From: Chryseobacterium pennipullorum
Lineage (GTDB): Bacteria; Bacteroidota; Bacteroidia; Flavobacteriales; Weeksellaceae
Assembly (NCBI RefSeq): GCF_003384725.1
Contig: NZ_QNVV01000001.1
Coordinates: 62,001-126,000 of the forward strand
Direction: 5' to 3'
DNA length: 64,000 nucleotides
In this document: one piece after another, positions 8,370 to 50,338 of the stretch
How positions within the stretch are numbered: the first letter of the stretch is position 1
How the letters are laid out: each line of letters opens with the position of its first letter
The notes under the pieces: generated by a model
Database searches by the model: none
Told to the model about the DNA's origin: nothing
The model's input: the letters and a program-made list of their open reading frames with translations, nothing else
Program-made: the position numbers and the translations under genes

Positions 8370-9479
8370 TTAATCTTCTATTTTAAAATCTACTACCGCA
8401 TCCAGTTTTGGATATCTGGTAGCGGATATAAATTTCTTTCCGGTACAGTCTATTTCCAGCCAGCCTTTTCTTTTCTTTACATCTCCTACCTCCATGACAA
8501 ATGGGACAAAAGAAATTTCATCTTTTCCGTTTTCTATCACTTCCCTGTACTGCACAGCAATATCCAGAATACATTCATGTGCCGTGTTCAGTTTTACATT
8601 CCTGTATACGATATCATAATGTGTTTCTTTATTTTCAGGAATCTCAAGATAAGTCTCCCACCCCGTAATATCTGACTTCAGTTCACTGATAGCTTTTAAC
8701 GCATAATACAATGCAATTGTATAATATTTTCTTGTTCCTTTTCTGGTATAGTCATCAATAAAATGTCCCCCTTCAAATAAAATAGTGGGCATTCCGGCCT
8801 TAATAAAATTGTCTCCGGTAGAGGTCGGATAAAACTCGTCAGAGTATCGTCCAATCTGGTTAGGAATGATCTCTTTCAGGTGTGTGTAAACATTTCCGAT
8901 TACCGCCATACATTTTTTCCTGTTGTCCGTTACTGTTCGTTCTACATTCTCTGAAGGTGCCAGAAAAGAAAGTGTAGCCGGGTGAATACCATCGGTAGTA
9001 AAAATGGTTCTCTGCTCATGAAGGTTCAGAGCATAATCATATTTCCTGGAAGCCGCCGCATTTTTAAGGAACTTAATCTCCTTACTTGATTCATTGTGAA
9101 AATCCCGGTTCAGATCAATATCAGCAGCATTCAGCCTGGTCCATTTTTCTGAACCGTCAGGATTTAACATCAATATAAAATCCAAGCTGATTTTACTGAA
9201 TAAATCCTCTTTCATTTCTGGAGCTTTATCCAGGCTTATCATCAGGTCAAGGATCGCATGGGTAGCGTTGGATTCGTTGCCGTGCATCTGTGACCATGCC
9301 AGTACATGGATATCTCCGGTTCCGATGCTTAGCTTATAAATAGGTTTGTCTAAATAGGATGTTCCGATCTCCTGAATATAATCTCTGAGATTTGCCTGTA
9401 GGTAAGAAAATAATTTTTCAGGAGAAATATAGCGATTTGAGAAATCGGGGTTCTGAGAATAGATCTGTTCAAAATTCAT
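8370..9479 (-). CDS. M14-family zinc carboxypeptidase
   Basis: 369 residues, no signal peptide, so probably cytoplasmic. The M14 zinc site is visible: H66 and E69 in HGNES, and H154 in LNLHEQ. NPDG at 106-109 and DLNRD at 122-126 match the conserved substrate-binding loops. These enzymes remove C-terminal residues or act on peptidoglycan-type amide bonds; the substrate is not clear. Its stop codon overlaps the end of the shared terminator, and upstream it faces the long AT-rich leader of the XRE gene. Confidence 0.85.
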   Translation of the reverse strand: MNFEQIYSQNPDFSNRYISPEKLFSYLQANLRDYIQEIGTSYLDKPIYKLSIGTGDIHVLAWSQMHGNESNATHAILDLMISLDKAPEMKEDLFSKISLDFILMLNPDGSEKWTRLNAADIDLNRDFHNESSKEIKFLKNAAASRKYDYALNLHEQRTIFTTDGIHPATLSFLAPSENVERTVTDNRKKCMAVIGNVYTHLKEIIPNQIGRYSDEFYPTSTGDNFIKAGMPTILFEGGHFIDDYTRKGTRKYYTIALYYALKAISELKSDITGWETYLEIPENKETHYDIVYRNVKLNTAHECILDIAVQYREVIENGKDEISFVPFVMEVGDVKKRKGWLEIDCTGKKFISATRYPKLDAVVDFKIED

Positions 9480-9667
9480 TAGGAATAGTTTACAAGATCA
9501 AAATTAACCATTTTAAGGTAAAAAACACTATTGACATATGTAAATAAGTCAAAAAATCAATTGATTTAAGAATTTACATTTGACACTTGCTAATTTACAA
9601 ATATTAAAATCCCTATTTTACTCATAAAGATTGTATGCAACATTTGTAACATTGTTAAACAGTAACG

Positions 9668-9702
9668 ACAGACAAAATGTCTGTGGATAAAATTGTGGAT
9701 TG
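9668..9702. other. inverted repeat with two DnaA-box-like sites
   Basis: 9668-9684 is a perfect 7-bp inverted repeat (ACAGACA-AAA-TGTCTGT). Overlapping it, 9682-9690 is TGTGGATAA, the exact complement of the DnaA box TTATCCACA; 9694-9702 is TGTGGATTG, a weaker match 12 bp further on in the same orientation. Confidence 0.45.
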
Positions 9703-10374
9703 CGAATAATTAAAAACGTGTAATTTATGTATATGATTTTCAGTTATTTATAATATTTAATTAAATACTACTTTTAATATTACTTGAGGTAAATAAAAGG
9801 GCCTTTTACGACATTTATTCATTATTTTATTAAACGTACCCATTGTGGAAAAGTTGGTCGATTATCGGATAATAACAAATGTAAATAGTCAAAATACTTA
9901 ATCGTAATTGAAAATTCAGCTTATTTTTATGTTTAAGGGCATTTAATGATAGAAGCTTGAAGTATTTTTTCCTTAGAAGCTTATTTCCAAAAATAATTTG
10001 CAGTCAAATGATAATACTTTAGTAATTTACGTTTGTATATTGTTTTTAATACATTAATTACATGATAATTACGGAAATATGTAGCATATTTACTCTAAAC
10101 ATTTACTCTATTAAATTAACAATGTAAACTGTAATAATCAGATATTTTGGAGAGAATTAGACGGTATTAAAACCACATAATTTATCAATACGACCTTTTT
10201 ACCCCTTTATTATTCAAGAAGTATTAAGGAAATTAATACATTTAGTTTTGTAAAAATGATCTGCAATATGAATTACTACAAATGTAATTTTAACATAAAT
10301 TACTAATTAACAATACATTATGCACTATTTACATTTGTACATTTAATAAATTTCACTTTATTTACATTTGTATT

Positions 10375-10405
10375 TTGCATTTGTAAATTATATACATTAC
10401 ATTTG
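10375..10405 (+). promoter_or_regulatory. promoter of the XRE gene, overlapping two operators
   Basis: TTG at 10375-10377, 20-base spacer, then TACATTTG at 10398-10405, a full match to the Bacteroidota promoter pattern and about 25 bases before the ATG. The -33 and -7 elements coincide with the third and fourth palindromes, so a bound protein should block transcription. Confidence 0.65.
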
Positions 10406-10429
10406 TAACACAATTAATCGCCTATTTTT

Positions 10430-10969
10430 ATGAGCCTCAACGAAAGAATTTCAAAAGTTATCGAGTACTCCCGTCTTACTCCCTCTGAATTTGCTGACGA
10501 GATTGATGTACAACGTTCGTCGATCTCTCATATTACATCAGGAAGGAATAAACCTTCATTGGAGTTTATCATAAAAATAAAATCCCGTTTCCCGGAACTA
10601 CTTTGGGACTGGCTGGTTACGGGTGAAGGTGAGATGTTGAAATCCCAGCTAATGGAACCACAAATTCTTCAAGAAGATTCAACAGAAGAAAAGGGAAAGC
10701 CTACTCCTCTGCCCGATCTGTTTACGATGATCAACAGCAGTGATGAGGAGTTCGGGAATGACGAATCGGAAATCGAACCCGCAACCCAGGGTGCCGGAGA
10801 ATCTTTTACAGCGCATCAAGGTAAGGTTGAAGAAAAAATATCCGCTTCTCAGCGATTAGAAAATCCTGCAGAGCAAGTGCTGGGTCAAATGTTTGGAAAT
10901 CAATCCAATAAGATAAAACGTATTGTTTTGTTTTATGAAAACGGAAAATTCGAAAGTTTTGAACCATAA
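10430..10969 (+). CDS. XRE-family helix-turn-helix regulator
   Basis: 179 residues. Residues about 3-65 form an XRE/Cro-type HTH: LNERISKVIEYSRL, FADEIDVQRSSISHITSGRN as helix-turn-helix, then PSLEFIIKIKSRFPELLWDWLVTGEGEM. Residues 70-179 are acidic and low-complexity, with a more ordered C-terminal end (KIKRIVLFYENGKFESFEP) that may mediate oligomerisation. Four copies of the upstream palindrome overlap or abut its own promoter, so negative autoregulation is likely. The HTH suggests a conserved flavobacterial orphan regulator, not a phage repressor: there are no phage genes nearby. Confidence 0.85.
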   Translation: MSLNERISKVIEYSRLTPSEFADEIDVQRSSISHITSGRNKPSLEFIIKIKSRFPELLWDWLVTGEGEMLKSQLMEPQILQEDSTEEKGKPTPLPDLFTMINSSDEEFGNDESEIEPATQGAGESFTAHQGKVEEKISASQRLENPAEQVLGQMFGNQSNKIKRIVLFYENGKFESFEP

Positions 10970-45860: not shown

Positions 45861-46523
45861 TTAGTTTCCTCCAAACTTGAAACCAACACCTACCTGGATA
45901 AAACTGTTAGTCAGCTTCTCGTTACCTTCAGCATGTTTGGCAAGGTTAGAAACACCAAGGTTATATCGTGCATCAAAAAATAATCCGTTCTCCAGTGCAT
46001 ACTCAGCGCCGATGAAAGGGGCAAGGTTTAAGGTATTCACCTGGTCTTTGATGTCCACTTCCTGGTCTGCGTCAAGCTCAAACAATGGCCCTAAACCAAA
46101 ATCAGCAGAGAGTTTTTCTTTTGCAGAAAGGATAAGACCGACACTTGCACCCGCCGAAACAGACAGTCCTTCCGTAATGAAATACTTAGCAGATACAGGA
46201 ATCAATAACGTATGAAAAGTCTGTTTTGCTTTAAAGTTCAGGAATGTAGTCGGGTCCTCAGGATCAGCAGCCTCTATATTTACCCTACCTCCCAGTGGAG
46301 AATATAAAAGCTCTCCCTGTAGGGCAAATTTGTCACTTAGCTTATACTCAGCGATTCCACCGATGTAAAAGGTATGCAGGGGATCAGAAGTCTCAGACTG
46401 ACCGTCACCTTTCGCTTTAAGAGTAGAGTATGAATATCCTGCTTTAGGACCGAATCGAAATTCCTGAGCATTCATGGAAATTCCCAATACAGCTACCGCT
46501 GCAACAAGTAAAAGTTTTTTCAT
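45861..46523 (-). CDS. porin-family beta-barrel protein, paralogue 5
   Basis: 220 residues, same length and layout as the 42748 gene: signal MKKLLLVAAVAVLGISMNAQ, EFRFGPKAGYSYSTLK, GELLYSPLGGRVNIE, and the end SFIQVGVGFKFGGN. Likely a duplicate of that gene. -7 element TAGATTTG at 46546-46553. Confidence 0.82.
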   Translation of the reverse strand: MKKLLLVAAVAVLGISMNAQEFRFGPKAGYSYSTLKAKGDGQSETSDPLHTFYIGGIAEYKLSDKFALQGELLYSPLGGRVNIEAADPEDPTTFLNFKAKQTFHTLLIPVSAKYFITEGLSVSAGASVGLILSAKEKLSADFGLGPLFELDADQEVDIKDQVNTLNLAPFIGAEYALENGLFFDARYNLGVSNLAKHAEGNEKLTNSFIQVGVGFKFGGN

Positions 46524-46545
46524 TGTTAATTAGTTTTAAGGATTG

Positions 46546-46553
46546 CAAATCTA
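46546..46553 (-). promoter_or_regulatory. -7 element of the 45861 barrel gene
   Basis: Minus-strand TAGATTTG, 22 bases from the ATG. Confidence 0.45.
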
Positions 46554-46632
46554 ATTATTTTTTTCAGATCTCCAAATGTTAATAAAACAATTAAGGTTAA
46601 TGAAAGGTTAACAGAACTTTTACCGTTGTATT

Positions 46633-47592
46633 TTAATCATTTCTCAGTCTTTGCTCCTCATCGTTATAGGCCAGGATAATCTTTCTTACAACAGGATGCC
46701 TTACGACATCTTCTTCTGTAAGGTGTACAAATCCGATCTCCTTCACTCCGTTCAGAATTCTCATGGCTTCTTTCAATCCGGACTGTTGGTTTTTCGGAAG
46801 GTCAATCTGGCTGGGATCTCCCGTAATGATAAACTTGGCATTCATTCCCATTCTGGTCAGGAACATTTTCATCTGGGCATGCGTGGTATTCTGTGCTTCA
46901 TCAAGAATTACAAATGCATCATCCAGCGTACGTCCTCTCATAAAAGCCAGCGGTGCCACTTCAATTACTTTTTTCTCCATAAACCCCTCCAGCTTCTCAT
47001 GTGGAATCATATCACGCAATGCATCGTATAGAGGCTGTAAATACGGATCCAGCTTTTCTTTTAGGTCACCTGGTAAAAACCCAAGACTCTCCCCTGCTTC
47101 TACTGCCGGTCTTGTAAGGATAATTCTTTTGACCTCCTTATCCCTCAATGCTCTTGCTGCCAATGCCACACTGGTATACGTCTTACCGGTTCCTGCTGGT
47201 CCGATGGCAAAAACCATGTCTTTTTTCTCAGTCTCTTTTACCAGTTTTTTAAGATTGGTAGTTTTGGCTTTGATGATCTTACCATTGACTCCTTTTACAA
47301 TAATATCCTGGTCAAAGATCAGCTGCTTTTCGCTTTCGTCTTTAATATTGAGAATATTTTCAACATCTTTCAGCCCTATTGAGTTGTTTTTAGAGATAAA
47401 ACTTACAATATCATTCAGTTTTTGTTTCAGTATATCCAAAGCTTCCTGATTTCCCATGGCAAAGATAAAATGATCTCTTCCTGTAATTTTAATGGTTGGG
47501 AAACTTGATTTTATTAAGTTGAAATATTGGTTATTAACTCCATAGAAGATTTTCGCATCGATATCTTCCAGATCATATGTCAATTCAAACAT
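46633..47592 (-). CDS. PhoH-family ATPase
   Basis: 319 residues. N-terminal KH-like part (about 1-100), then Walker A FAIGPAGTGKTYTSVALAA (about 131-149) and GESLGFLPGDLKEKLDPYL, with DEAQNTTHAQMKMFLTRMG (Walker B region) and TGDPSQIDLP (sensor). PhoH proteins are thought to act in RNA metabolism. Divergent from the 47725 gene. Confidence 0.92.
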   Translation of the reverse strand: MFELTYDLEDIDAKIFYGVNNQYFNLIKSSFPTIKITGRDHFIFAMGNQEALDILKQKLNDIVSFISKNNSIGLKDVENILNIKDESEKQLIFDQDIIVKGVNGKIIKAKTTNLKKLVKETEKKDMVFAIGPAGTGKTYTSVALAARALRDKEVKRIILTRPAVEAGESLGFLPGDLKEKLDPYLQPLYDALRDMIPHEKLEGFMEKKVIEVAPLAFMRGRTLDDAFVILDEAQNTTHAQMKMFLTRMGMNAKFIITGDPSQIDLPKNQQSGLKEAMRILNGVKEIGFVHLTEEDVVRHPVVRKIILAYNDEEQRLRND

Positions 47593-47689
47593 GCAGTATT
47601 TTTATTTTTAGATTTTAAAATTAAAGCTTTTTTTCAAATTTATATCAAATTCTTTTCAACAATATTTCGGGCTTTCTTTTTATTTTAAA

Positions 47690-47697
47690 TAACTTTG
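47690..47697 (+). promoter_or_regulatory. -7 element that decides the start of the SAM hydrolase-like gene
   Basis: TAACTTTG ends at 47697 and overlaps a possible TTG start at 47695, so the ATG at 47725 is the start. Confidence 0.55.
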
Positions 47698-47724
47698 CAA
47701 TACCAGACTATTCTAAAATTGCTC

Positions 47725-48552
47725 ATGTCAATTATTACCCTTACTTCGGATTTCGGAAATTTAGATTACAGAGTTGCCGCTGTGAAAGGTAAAATTCTGT
47801 CTCTAAATCCTGAGGTTAATATTATTGATATAACCCACGATATCCAGGCATTCAATCTGATACAAACCTCGTACATCGTACGAAATGCTTATAAATATTT
47901 TCCAAAAGGCAGCATCCACATTCTTTCTGTGGACAGCTTTTACCATAGATCAAGAAAAAACATCCTTTACAAGGCAGACGGATCTTATTTTCTGGCAGCA
48001 GACAACGGCCTTCTTAGCCTTATATTTTTCGATATAAAGCCTGAAGCGATCTATGAGCTGACGCTGAATAACAGATTTGATGATATTATCGACTTTACTT
48101 CGACCGATATTTTTGTACCCGCAGCAGTACACCTCGCCAATGGTGGGCTTCCCGAAGTGATCGGAAGAAAAATAGATTCTGCGAAACAACTGATGTTCCC
48201 TAGAGCGGTGTATAATGAGTCTGAAGGCATGATCATTGGGGAAGTTACCTATATTGATAATTTCGGAAATATAATTTCAAATATCAATAAAGATTTTTTC
48301 GAGAATATCAGCAAAGGATACAATGGATTCACCATAAAATTCAGAAACCTGAGCCTTTCCAGGATATTTTCAAGCCATACCGAAGTGGTTTCGGATTGGG
48401 AAAGGGAAACGGAATACCACGGTCAGTCTGCAGCTATTTTCAATGACGGCCAGCAGCTGGAACTTACGATCTATAAAGGAAGCAAGAAAAACGGCGCTAA
48501 AAGCCTGTTTGGCTTGAACGTAGGCGAAAATATCTATATTGAATTCAGCTAA
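47725..48552 (+). CDS. SAM hydroxide adenosyltransferase (DUF62/chlorinase-fluorinase fold)
   Basis: 275 residues from the ATG at 47725. Opening SIITLTSDFGNLDYRVAAVK is the conserved N-terminus of the family related to fluorinase and chlorinase; characterised bacterial members hydrolyse S-adenosylmethionine to adenosine and methionine. SVDSFYHR, AADNGLLS and FVPAAVHLANG are also typical. The physiological purpose is unclear. Confidence 0.85.
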   Translation: MSIITLTSDFGNLDYRVAAVKGKILSLNPEVNIIDITHDIQAFNLIQTSYIVRNAYKYFPKGSIHILSVDSFYHRSRKNILYKADGSYFLAADNGLLSLIFFDIKPEAIYELTLNNRFDDIIDFTSTDIFVPAAVHLANGGLPEVIGRKIDSAKQLMFPRAVYNESEGMIIGEVTYIDNFGNIISNINKDFFENISKGYNGFTIKFRNLSLSRIFSSHTEVVSDWERETEYHGQSAAIFNDGQQLELTIYKGSKKNGAKSLFGLNVGENIYIEFS

Positions 48553-48587
48553 AATTATATATTTCATAAAAAAACCGATTTTTTTTA

Positions 48588-48595
48588 TATATTTG
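48588..48595 (+). promoter_or_regulatory. -7 element of the E2 gene
   Basis: TATATTTG, 20 bases before the ATG at 48616. Confidence 0.5.
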
Positions 48596-48615
48596 TCAAA
48601 ATCTAAAAATCAAAA

Positions 48616-49923
48616 ATGGCAGAATACAAATTATTGCTTCCTTCCATGGGAGAAGGGGTTATGGAAGCGACAATTATCACTTGGTTATTCAATGAGGGTG
48701 ATAACGTAAAAGAAGATGACTCTGTGGTAGAAATTGCAACAGATAAAGTAGATTCAGACGTTCCGACACCAGTTTCGGGGAAAATCGTGAAAATTTTAAA
48801 GCAAAAAGATGAAGTTGCAAAAGTAGGTGAGGCCATTGCTATTTTAGAAATCGAAGGAGAAGGCACCGCTTCTGAAGAAGTAAAAACTGAAGCTCCGGCA
48901 GCAACCACTCCGGATGCCGATACTTTGAAAACAATTGAGCAGCCATTGCAGCCTGCTGCTTCAACCGTAGAATTTTCCGGAGATCTTTATCTTTCTCCAC
49001 TTGTAAAATCCATCGCACAACAGGAAAAAATTTCTGAAACCGAGCTGAAATCCATCAAGGGAAGTGGTTTGGAAGGAAGAATTACCAAAGAAGATATATT
49101 GGCCTACGTTTCCAACAGAGGAAGCCAGCCCGTTCAGCAGACAGCTCCGGTACAGGCAGCTTCTACTCCACAACCGGCACCATCTGCTCCGGCAGCGACA
49201 ATTCCGGTAAGTGCAGGTGATGAGATCATTCCAATGGACAGAATGAGAAAGATCATTGCTGAAAACATGGTAAAAGCAAAACAAATTGCTCCACACGTGA
49301 CTTCTTTCATTGAAACAGACGTTACCAACGTTGTAAAATGGAGAAATAAAAACAAAGCGGTTTTCGAAAAACGTGAAGGTGAAAAACTTACTTTCATGCC
49401 GATTTTCGTCAAAGCTGTTGTGAAAGCAATCCAGGATTTCCCAATGATCAACGTTTCTATCAATGGTGAAAATATCATCAAGAAGAAAAATATCAACATT
49501 GGTATGGCCACTGCCCTTCCGGACGGAAACCTTATTGTTCCTGTCATCAAAAATGCTGATCAGCTCTCTCTTTCCGGTCTTGCAAAAGCAATTAATGACC
49601 TGGCTTACAGAGCAAGAAACAAAAAATTAAGACCTGAAGACACTCAGGGAGCAACATATACCATTTCCAACGTAGGAAGCTTCGGAAACCTGATGGGTAC
49701 ACCGATTATTCCTCAGCCTCAGGTAGCCATTTTAGCAATCGGAGCTATTGTTAAAAAGCCTGCAGTTCTTGAAACGGCTGATGGTGATGTGATCGCGATC
49801 AGAAACTTAATGTTCATGTCTCACTCTTATGACCACAGGGTGGTAGACGGATCTTTAGGCGGAATGATGCTGAAGCATGTTCACGATTATCTTGAAAACT
49901 GGGATCTGAATACAGAAATCTAA
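48616..49923 (+). CDS. dihydrolipoamide acyltransferase (E2), 2-oxoacid dehydrogenase
   Basis: 435 residues. Lipoyl domain 1-80 with the lipoyl lysine K44 in EIATDKVDSD; peripheral subunit-binding domain about 121-161 (LSPLVKSIAQQEKISETELK, GRITKEDILAYV); an Ala/Pro/Gln linker; catalytic domain with SHSYDHRVVDG near the C-terminus, whose His is the catalytic base. The branched-chain alpha-keto acid or a similar complex is most likely; there are no E1 or E3 genes beside it. Monocistronic with promoter and terminator. Confidence 0.88.
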   Translation: MAEYKLLLPSMGEGVMEATIITWLFNEGDNVKEDDSVVEIATDKVDSDVPTPVSGKIVKILKQKDEVAKVGEAIAILEIEGEGTASEEVKTEAPAATTPDADTLKTIEQPLQPAASTVEFSGDLYLSPLVKSIAQQEKISETELKSIKGSGLEGRITKEDILAYVSNRGSQPVQQTAPVQAASTPQPAPSAPAATIPVSAGDEIIPMDRMRKIIAENMVKAKQIAPHVTSFIETDVTNVVKWRNKNKAVFEKREGEKLTFMPIFVKAVVKAIQDFPMINVSINGENIIKKKNINIGMATALPDGNLIVPVIKNADQLSLSGLAKAINDLAYRARNKKLRPEDTQGATYTISNVGSFGNLMGTPIIPQPQVAILAIGAIVKKPAVLETADGDVIAIRNLMFMSHSYDHRVVDGSLGGMMLKHVHDYLENWDLNTEI

Positions 49924-49968
49924 GAAATAGGTAACGGGCAAAACTATTTTTTGCCGGTTCCAATACAA

Positions 49969-49991
49969 AGCCTTCGATTGATTCGAAGGCT
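49969..49991 (+). terminator. terminator of the E2 gene
   Basis: Perfect 9-bp stem (AGCCTTCGA/TCGAAGGCT), 5-base loop, then seven T. Confidence 0.88.
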
Positions 49992-49997
49992 TTTTTA

Positions 49998-50338
49998 TTG
50001 AAAAAATGTAATTATTACTGTATACACAGGAGATTTGTCAACGATACAACAGAACATGACTTCCTTATGACAGAGGTACATCAATTAAATAAGCTGCATT
50101 TGTGACAAAAAAAATCAACAAAATAGAAATCTCCTTAATGACATTGAAAAATCAGATTCGTTATACAAACCTAAAAAAAGCGATTTTTATTTTACAAATA
50201 ATTTAAAATATATAGTTTTTCATGTAAAAACATCAATTCTAGATCATCTATTTTAGATTATATGGACTTTTTTGGAAGTTTAAGTTATTAGTATTACATT
50301 TAAAAACAATTAACGTTTAAACTTTTCCCAACACACAA
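49998..50338. other. AT-rich intergenic DNA, no gene seen
   Basis: Nothing recognisable between the E2 terminator and the ClC start codon; no promoter of standard form either. Confidence 0.4.

Follow-up and report, generated by a model that had tools for sequence, protein, structure and literature searches.

Palindrome clusters between divergent XRE-regulator and M14 carboxypeptidase genes in Chryseobacterium pennipullorum: a conserved, putatively autoregulatory locus

The window analyzed here is a 64,000-nucleotide stretch of Chryseobacterium pennipullorum DNA (G000:C1:62001-126000, G000 being the organism's own genome of 4.8 Mb). It contains an XRE-family regulator gene (hereafter xre) and, on the other strand, an M14-family zinc carboxypeptidase gene (M14). 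The two are divergent and are separated by a gap of 950 bp with 23% GC (9480-10429), in which a short palindromic sequence is repeated many times. The features of the locus are as follows, in window coordinates; the counts refer to 81 aligned leaders, i.e., the window and 80 other Chryseobacterium loci.

10430-10969, plus strand: XRE-family regulator gene, 179 aa (open reading frame, ORF; HTH_3, E 2.4e-06)
10398-10407, plus strand: site O1, TACATTTGTA, containing the predicted -7 box at 10398-10405; exact in 81/81 leaders
10376-10385, plus strand: site O2, TGCATTTGTA, overlapping the predicted -33 TTTG at 10374-10377; at most one mismatch in 45/81
10363-10372, plus strand: site O3, TACATTTGTA; at most one mismatch in 64/81
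10330-10339, plus strand: site O4, TACATTTGTA; at most one mismatch in 81/81
10277-10286, minus strand: extra exact site, TACAAATGTA on the plus strand; weakly conserved, at most one mismatch in 34/81
9874-9883, minus strand: right-hand site of the M14-side module, AACAAATGTA on the plus strand; at most one mismatch in 80/81; 235 bp from 9639
9674-9720, no strand: conserved non-coding core with TGTCTGTGGATAAAATTGTGGATTG; mean column conservation 0.84; recognizable in other genera of the family
9639-9648, plus strand: left-hand site of the M14-side module, AACATTTGTA; at most one mismatch in 44/81, column conservation 0.91
9531-9544, no strand: M14-end site picked by the first-pass annotation, TTGACATATGTAAA; kept in only 22/81
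9499-9506, minus strand: possible M14 -7 box as read from the sequence, CAAAATTA on the plus and TAATTTTG on the minus strand
8370-9479, minus strand: M14-family zinc carboxypeptidase gene, 369 aa (Peptidase_M14, E 2.6e-07)

Counted in either orientation, the gap holds four exact copies of TACATTTGTA and eight copies with at most one mismatch. Dinucleotide shuffles of the gap (n = 2000) contained on average 0.02 exact copies (maximum 1) and 0.53 copies with at most one mismatch (maximum 5). Across the 64 kb scanned, 950-bp segments starting outside 8500-10450 contain at most one copy of TACATTTGTA each. With up to two mismatches allowed, TTTACANNTGTAAA has nine sites between 9531 and 10409, and 20 in the window versus about eight expected. 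The first-pass annotation had reported the array from the letters of the DNA and had asked whether the motif is any denser here than elsewhere and whether it is conserved in relatives. The array is real and far denser than in the shuffled gap, the rest of the 64 kb is far poorer in it, and the sites are kept both in the 81 aligned leaders and at loci of other families.

The four sites next to xre follow one another at start-to-start distances of 33, 13 and 22 bp (O4 to O3, O3 to O2 and O2 to O1). The sequence TACATTTG within O1 fits the -7 box TAnnTTTG, and 20 bp upstream of it lies the TTTG at 10374-10377, which we take to occupy the position of the -33 element. O1 holds the predicted -7 box and O2 overlaps the predicted -33 TTTG; the claim that two of the sites coincide with promoter elements is thus borne out by position. 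PMC9723704 gives the consensus TAnnTTTG at -12 to -5, and the predicted -7 box would place the transcription start about 20 nt before the xre ATG. In the 81 leaders, column conservation is 1.00 at 10398, 0.90 at 10376, 0.88 at 10363, 0.88 at 10330, 0.86 at 9874 and 0.91 at 9639, versus 0.58 outside these six sites. The weaker sites 10277, 10028 and 9533 have values of 0.65, 0.61 and 0.40, and are kept at up to one mismatch in 34/81, 27/81 and 22/81. Judged by this alignment, the copies in the array are unequal in importance, six being well conserved and these three weakly. Part of the conservation of O1 is promoter constraint, because TACATTTG is itself the -7 box.

The stretch had been described as an approximately 870-bp leader of the XRE gene, but it is the gap common to the divergent M14/XRE pair. 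M14 is divergent and directly upstream of xre in 30/58 loci (four of the 30 are second fetches), and was found divergent at 1.5-2.5 kb from xre in all 20 of the remaining 28 that were re-examined with more flank. Its ORF is on the minus strand in 78/80 Chryseobacterium loci. Seventeen loci of the family have an ORF of 345-375 aa between M14 and xre, starting 331-378 bp from the M14 match. The one that was checked is a TerC protein (Pfam E 6.5e-52), and the other 16 loci match it at 64.7-87.2% identity; three f7 loci among the 20 re-examined have a different ORF in this place. In a search at E 1e-20, neither the window nor the extracted stretches of the 80 Chryseobacterium loci gave a TerC match. 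In relatives terC lies between the M14-side module and the xre-side cluster. The supposed leader thus consists of two control regions, from between which, we infer, terC was lost. Each cluster remains with its own gene in the terC-bearing relatives, and in G025, where M14 is 4.9 kb from xre, both genes keep their own cluster.

The M14-side control region has a form of its own. It consists of a site, the core (GTCTGTTGAT...TTGTGGATT) and a second site, an arrangement that recurs across loci. The two sites, both at up to one mismatch, start 233-236 bp apart in 10 loci of ten genera, and 224 bp apart in three loci of genus g9. The core matches (threshold, at most 4 of 23 positions) in 12/17 terC-bearing family loci; in the other 5/17, and in the majority of loci from other families, it is no better matched than shuffled sequence. 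We did not find a site with at most one mismatch near M14 in L142, L144 and L335, or near the core in L360 and L353. The core at 9674-9720 also carries the DnaA-box-like elements TGTGGATAA and TTGTGGATT. A structured RNA leader was considered for this region and rejected (a sub-threshold Rfam match of 19.9 of 40 bits, and no predicted pairs in 15 sequences).

It is conceivable, if unlikely, that the XRE protein acts on its own promoter only and that another factor binds the M14-side module, whose TACATTTGTA-like elements would then be part of an M14/terC promoter region. The module does have a conserved core distinct from the palindrome, its left-hand site is present at up to one mismatch in only 44/81 leaders, and both of its sites are recognizable at this level in only 6/17 terC-bearing family loci. 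On the other hand, the right-hand site is kept in 80/81 leaders, and in other families the palindrome recurs at the M14 end as closer pairs (e.g., 24 bp apart) that lack the core.

The association of the motif with xre extends through the order. Within 120 bp upstream of xre, an exact TACATTTGTA is found in 25/30 family loci (27 genera) and in 13/20 loci of other families; allowing one mismatch raises these numbers to 30/30 and 17/20, and no such site was found within this distance at the other 3/20. In a background set of 787 ORFs, a few of them xre genes themselves, the corresponding numbers are 11 exact and 50 with up to one mismatch. Homologs of xre are present in 230/246 family genomes, and 14 of the 16 genomes without one belong to genus g21. 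Sites paired at no more than 30 bp occur at 104 places in 94/242 family genomes, with 2 matches for the reversed control. The position of xre is known for the genomes that hold 82 of the 104 places, and 77 of these 82 sit within 300 bp upstream of the gene. Paired sites are absent from 14/14 genomes of g21, which has no match to xre; this is moderate evidence, because the pattern is also absent from 148/242 genomes. Single copies of TACATTTGTA number 18-32 in three g21 genomes versus 34-46 in four genomes of the Chryseobacterium group.

The C. pennipullorum genome has 38 exact copies of TACATTTGTA. Four lie within 131 bp at the array; elsewhere no two copies are closer together than 1.1 kb. 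In the genome-wide scan suggested by the first-pass annotation, the 14-bp pattern at one mismatch shows no excess (40 matches versus 38 for the reversed pattern); the density of the array is therefore local. Across the family genomes, paired sites are nearly confined to the xre locus (77/82). Of the 34 exact sites outside the array, 20 were examined; 11 fall within ORFs of 60 aa or more and nine do not, and for eight of these nine an ORF starts within 250 bp downstream. Two single copies of TACATTTGTA about 1.1 kb apart occur in four related genomes (G161:C1:4365322/4366404, G060:C1:1889194/1890288, G185:C6:104712/105805 and G000:C11:47286/48411), and by eye one site of the G000:C11 pair precedes an ABC-transporter-like ORF. 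Five of the 82 paired-site places are away from xre. The examples at L169 and L194, which are unrelated places, share a similar, repeat-like flank, with TACATTTGTACTACTTTTGTA at 1500-1521 of both; it is possibly the end of a mobile element.

The first-pass annotation took sites nearly 900 bp upstream to imply a spreading nucleoprotein complex, a titration array or a chromosome-organizing site. That argument found no support: the far sites (9639 and 9874) are the M14-side control region, which stays with M14 where terC intervenes, and the clusters of G025 are 4.9 kb apart. Several sites do fall within 130 bp, as titration or spreading would have it. They are few, however, with set spacing over promoter elements, the far ones make up a separate cluster that goes with M14, and we found no further clusters elsewhere that could serve as titration targets. 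We consider titration or spreading extremely improbable here.

The XRE protein matches HTH_3 with 27.9 bits (cut-off 23), and its closest named matches are from Chryseobacterium at 80% identity and below. Its structure model has five helices; the helix-turn-helix spans residues 3-64, where pLDDT is mostly 79-90, and a disordered linker leads from there to a hairpin at the C-terminus (165-177). Autoregulated XRE or lambda-repressor-like proteins that act at several operators between divergent genes form a known class. The xre locus resembles them in its HTH_3 protein, in the repeated palindrome over its own promoter, which is conserved in relatives, and in a divergent neighbor with sites at its end. 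It differs from them in its order-wide conservation, the set spacing of the operators, the M14 (and terC) neighbors and the nearness to dif described below, and the XRE protein is here the putative binder. We did not find a description of the motif, the regulator or the locus in the open-licence literature; the circuit would be of a known kind and the locus is apparently undescribed.

In the M14 protein, residues H66, E69, H154 and E236 are invariant in 21/21 sequences and presumably have a functional role. The mean pLDDT of its structure model is 59. Its similarity to MpaA, a murein tripeptide amidase, is weak (27.2 bits, cut-off 157), and a role in wall recycling is therefore only a lead.

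We think it probable that the XRE protein regulates its own gene and co-controls M14, and in other genera terC. XRE dimers would bind TTTACATTTGTAAA, and the array would be the operator set of this adjacently encoded protein. Bound at O1-O4, the protein would cover the -7 and -33 elements and repress or tune the xre promoter, so that a covered promoter would hold the XRE protein at a steady level. The sites at the M14 end would let it control the divergent M14 gene, plus terC where terC intervenes. The 950-bp gap of Chryseobacterium would then be the old M14/terC control region joined to the xre promoter, with terC gone. The predicted regulon is small, comprising xre itself, the M14 peptidase and, in many genera, terC.

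The xre locus also lies near a dif-like site. A 28-bp dif-like sequence was recognized by comparing G025 and G001. Its 23-bp core, TCCTATAATTTATATTATGTTAA, is present at up to two mismatches in 226/242 family genomes and occurs once in 220, with 1 match for the reversed control. We regard it as a putative dif from its XerC/XerD-like form, its uniqueness and its closeness, in G161 and G008, to the switch from plus to minus skew, and it offers a simple dif-like marker for the family. According to PMC3025954, dif has been predicted earlier in 19/19 Bacteroidetes genomes. A general dif consensus at two mismatches gave only noise in the C. pennipullorum genome (35 matches versus 48 in the reversed control), with the later candidate, C17:50187, among the matches. 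That genome has TCCTATAATTTATATTATGTTAA once, at G000:C17:50188-50210, and xre is on contig C1. It is one of 36 genomes with xre and dif on different contigs, which stand outside the 113 genomes listed with both on one contig.

In those 113 genomes, the distance from xre to dif is 2.5-288 kb (median 90 kb), and dif lies upstream of xre in 111 of them. If a genome had two dif-like matches, the better one was used. Since draft contigs bias distances short, a fairer set is formed by the 42 genomes that consist of one contig and have both positions listed: in all 42 xre is within 9.3% of the chromosome from dif (median 2.6%, genome sizes being rounded to 0.1 Mb), and dif is upstream in 40. Eleven g9 genomes have a paired site 2.0-3.4 kb from dif. 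Outside the family, 6/9 genomes have a dif-like match with 2-3 mismatches, at 4.1, 4.8, 7.2, 7.8, 36.5 and 93 kb from the XRE homolog; at this threshold the reversed control matched 2/45 genomes. The gene for proline dehydrogenase adjoins xre in Chryseobacterium; of 10 other genomes, eight have it at a greater distance from dif than xre, and two, G027 and G062, have it closer. A small protein with a lipoprotein-like N-terminus is encoded within 10 kb of dif in 7/20 genomes (L336, L350, L345, L348, L351, L343 and L338).

This position gives the chromosome-organizing idea one support, indirect and unexplained. Bound to its sites, the XRE protein could help to organize the dif region or serve to mark it, in the manner of MatP on matS, which we judge very improbable. 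MatP has a different fold from the HTH_3 protein; the two have in common a DNA-binding protein with a palindromic site and a link to the dif region. In this direction point the nearness of xre to a dif-like site in all 113 same-contig genomes and all 42 one-contig genomes, the nearly constant side of dif, and the greater distance of proline dehydrogenase in most of the genomes compared. However, MatP/matS sites are spread over the terminus and the xre sites cluster at one locus: exact sites in the C. pennipullorum genome cluster only there, and in G161 no excess of other sites around dif was evident by eye among the listed places. The distance to dif is also uneven (2.5-288 kb), terminus-symmetric inversions by themselves maintain positions of this kind, and the single control gene is nearer dif in 2/10 genomes. 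As the genomes are related, symmetric inversions preserve positions and there was one control gene, the xre-dif linkage is a fact wanting explanation and no proof of a terminus function. A stronger version, which we hold to be highly speculative, would make the XRE protein a dedicated Flavobacteriales terminus factor, MatP- or Xer-accessory-like and outside both families. It would have stayed on one side of dif because its complex on the paired-site module and operator array marks the terminus, or couples events at dif to expression of the possibly wall-related M14.

The proximity to dif bears also on the origin of xre. CTX-type phages integrate at dif and have RstR as their repressor; the XRE protein is like RstR in its helix-turn-helix repressor type and its dif neighborhood. 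We find it improbable that xre descends from the repressor of a dif-integrating phage and now serves the host or immunity, a reading of its origin that is compatible with autoregulation. There is weak similarity to RstR-family repressors (28.3 bits, against a curated NCBIfam cut-off of 80) and to phage repressors, but it is mostly in the helix-turn-helix part, and of eight phage records one spans 80% or more of the query. The neighbors of xre are M14 and TerC genes, and no phage genes adjoin it. For Flavobacterium, PMC9719478 describes phages with presumed integration at dif.

Autoregulation with co-control of M14 remains the reading we favor. A little-studied order gains a widely kept regulator with a readable predicted site and a conserved place near dif, and XRE binding, regulation and any terminus role are now directly testable.

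An origin of replication was considered because the gap contains TGTGGAAAA and a perfect DnaA box, and was rejected on GC skew and box variation. The perfect box (9682-9690) is altered in many relatives; a second, with one mismatch, is at 9844. GC skew in the window is negative on both sides of the gap, and the minus-to-plus switch of an origin was not encountered. In G161, G008 and G001, xre is near the opposite (plus-to-minus) switch. Skew was examined in ten further genomes, being unclear in G004, G026 and G032 and weak in G062, and at fine scale it is noisy in G025 and G001. Elsewhere in the window, at about 46000-50000, gene orientation changes from mostly minus to mostly plus and the GC skew flattens.
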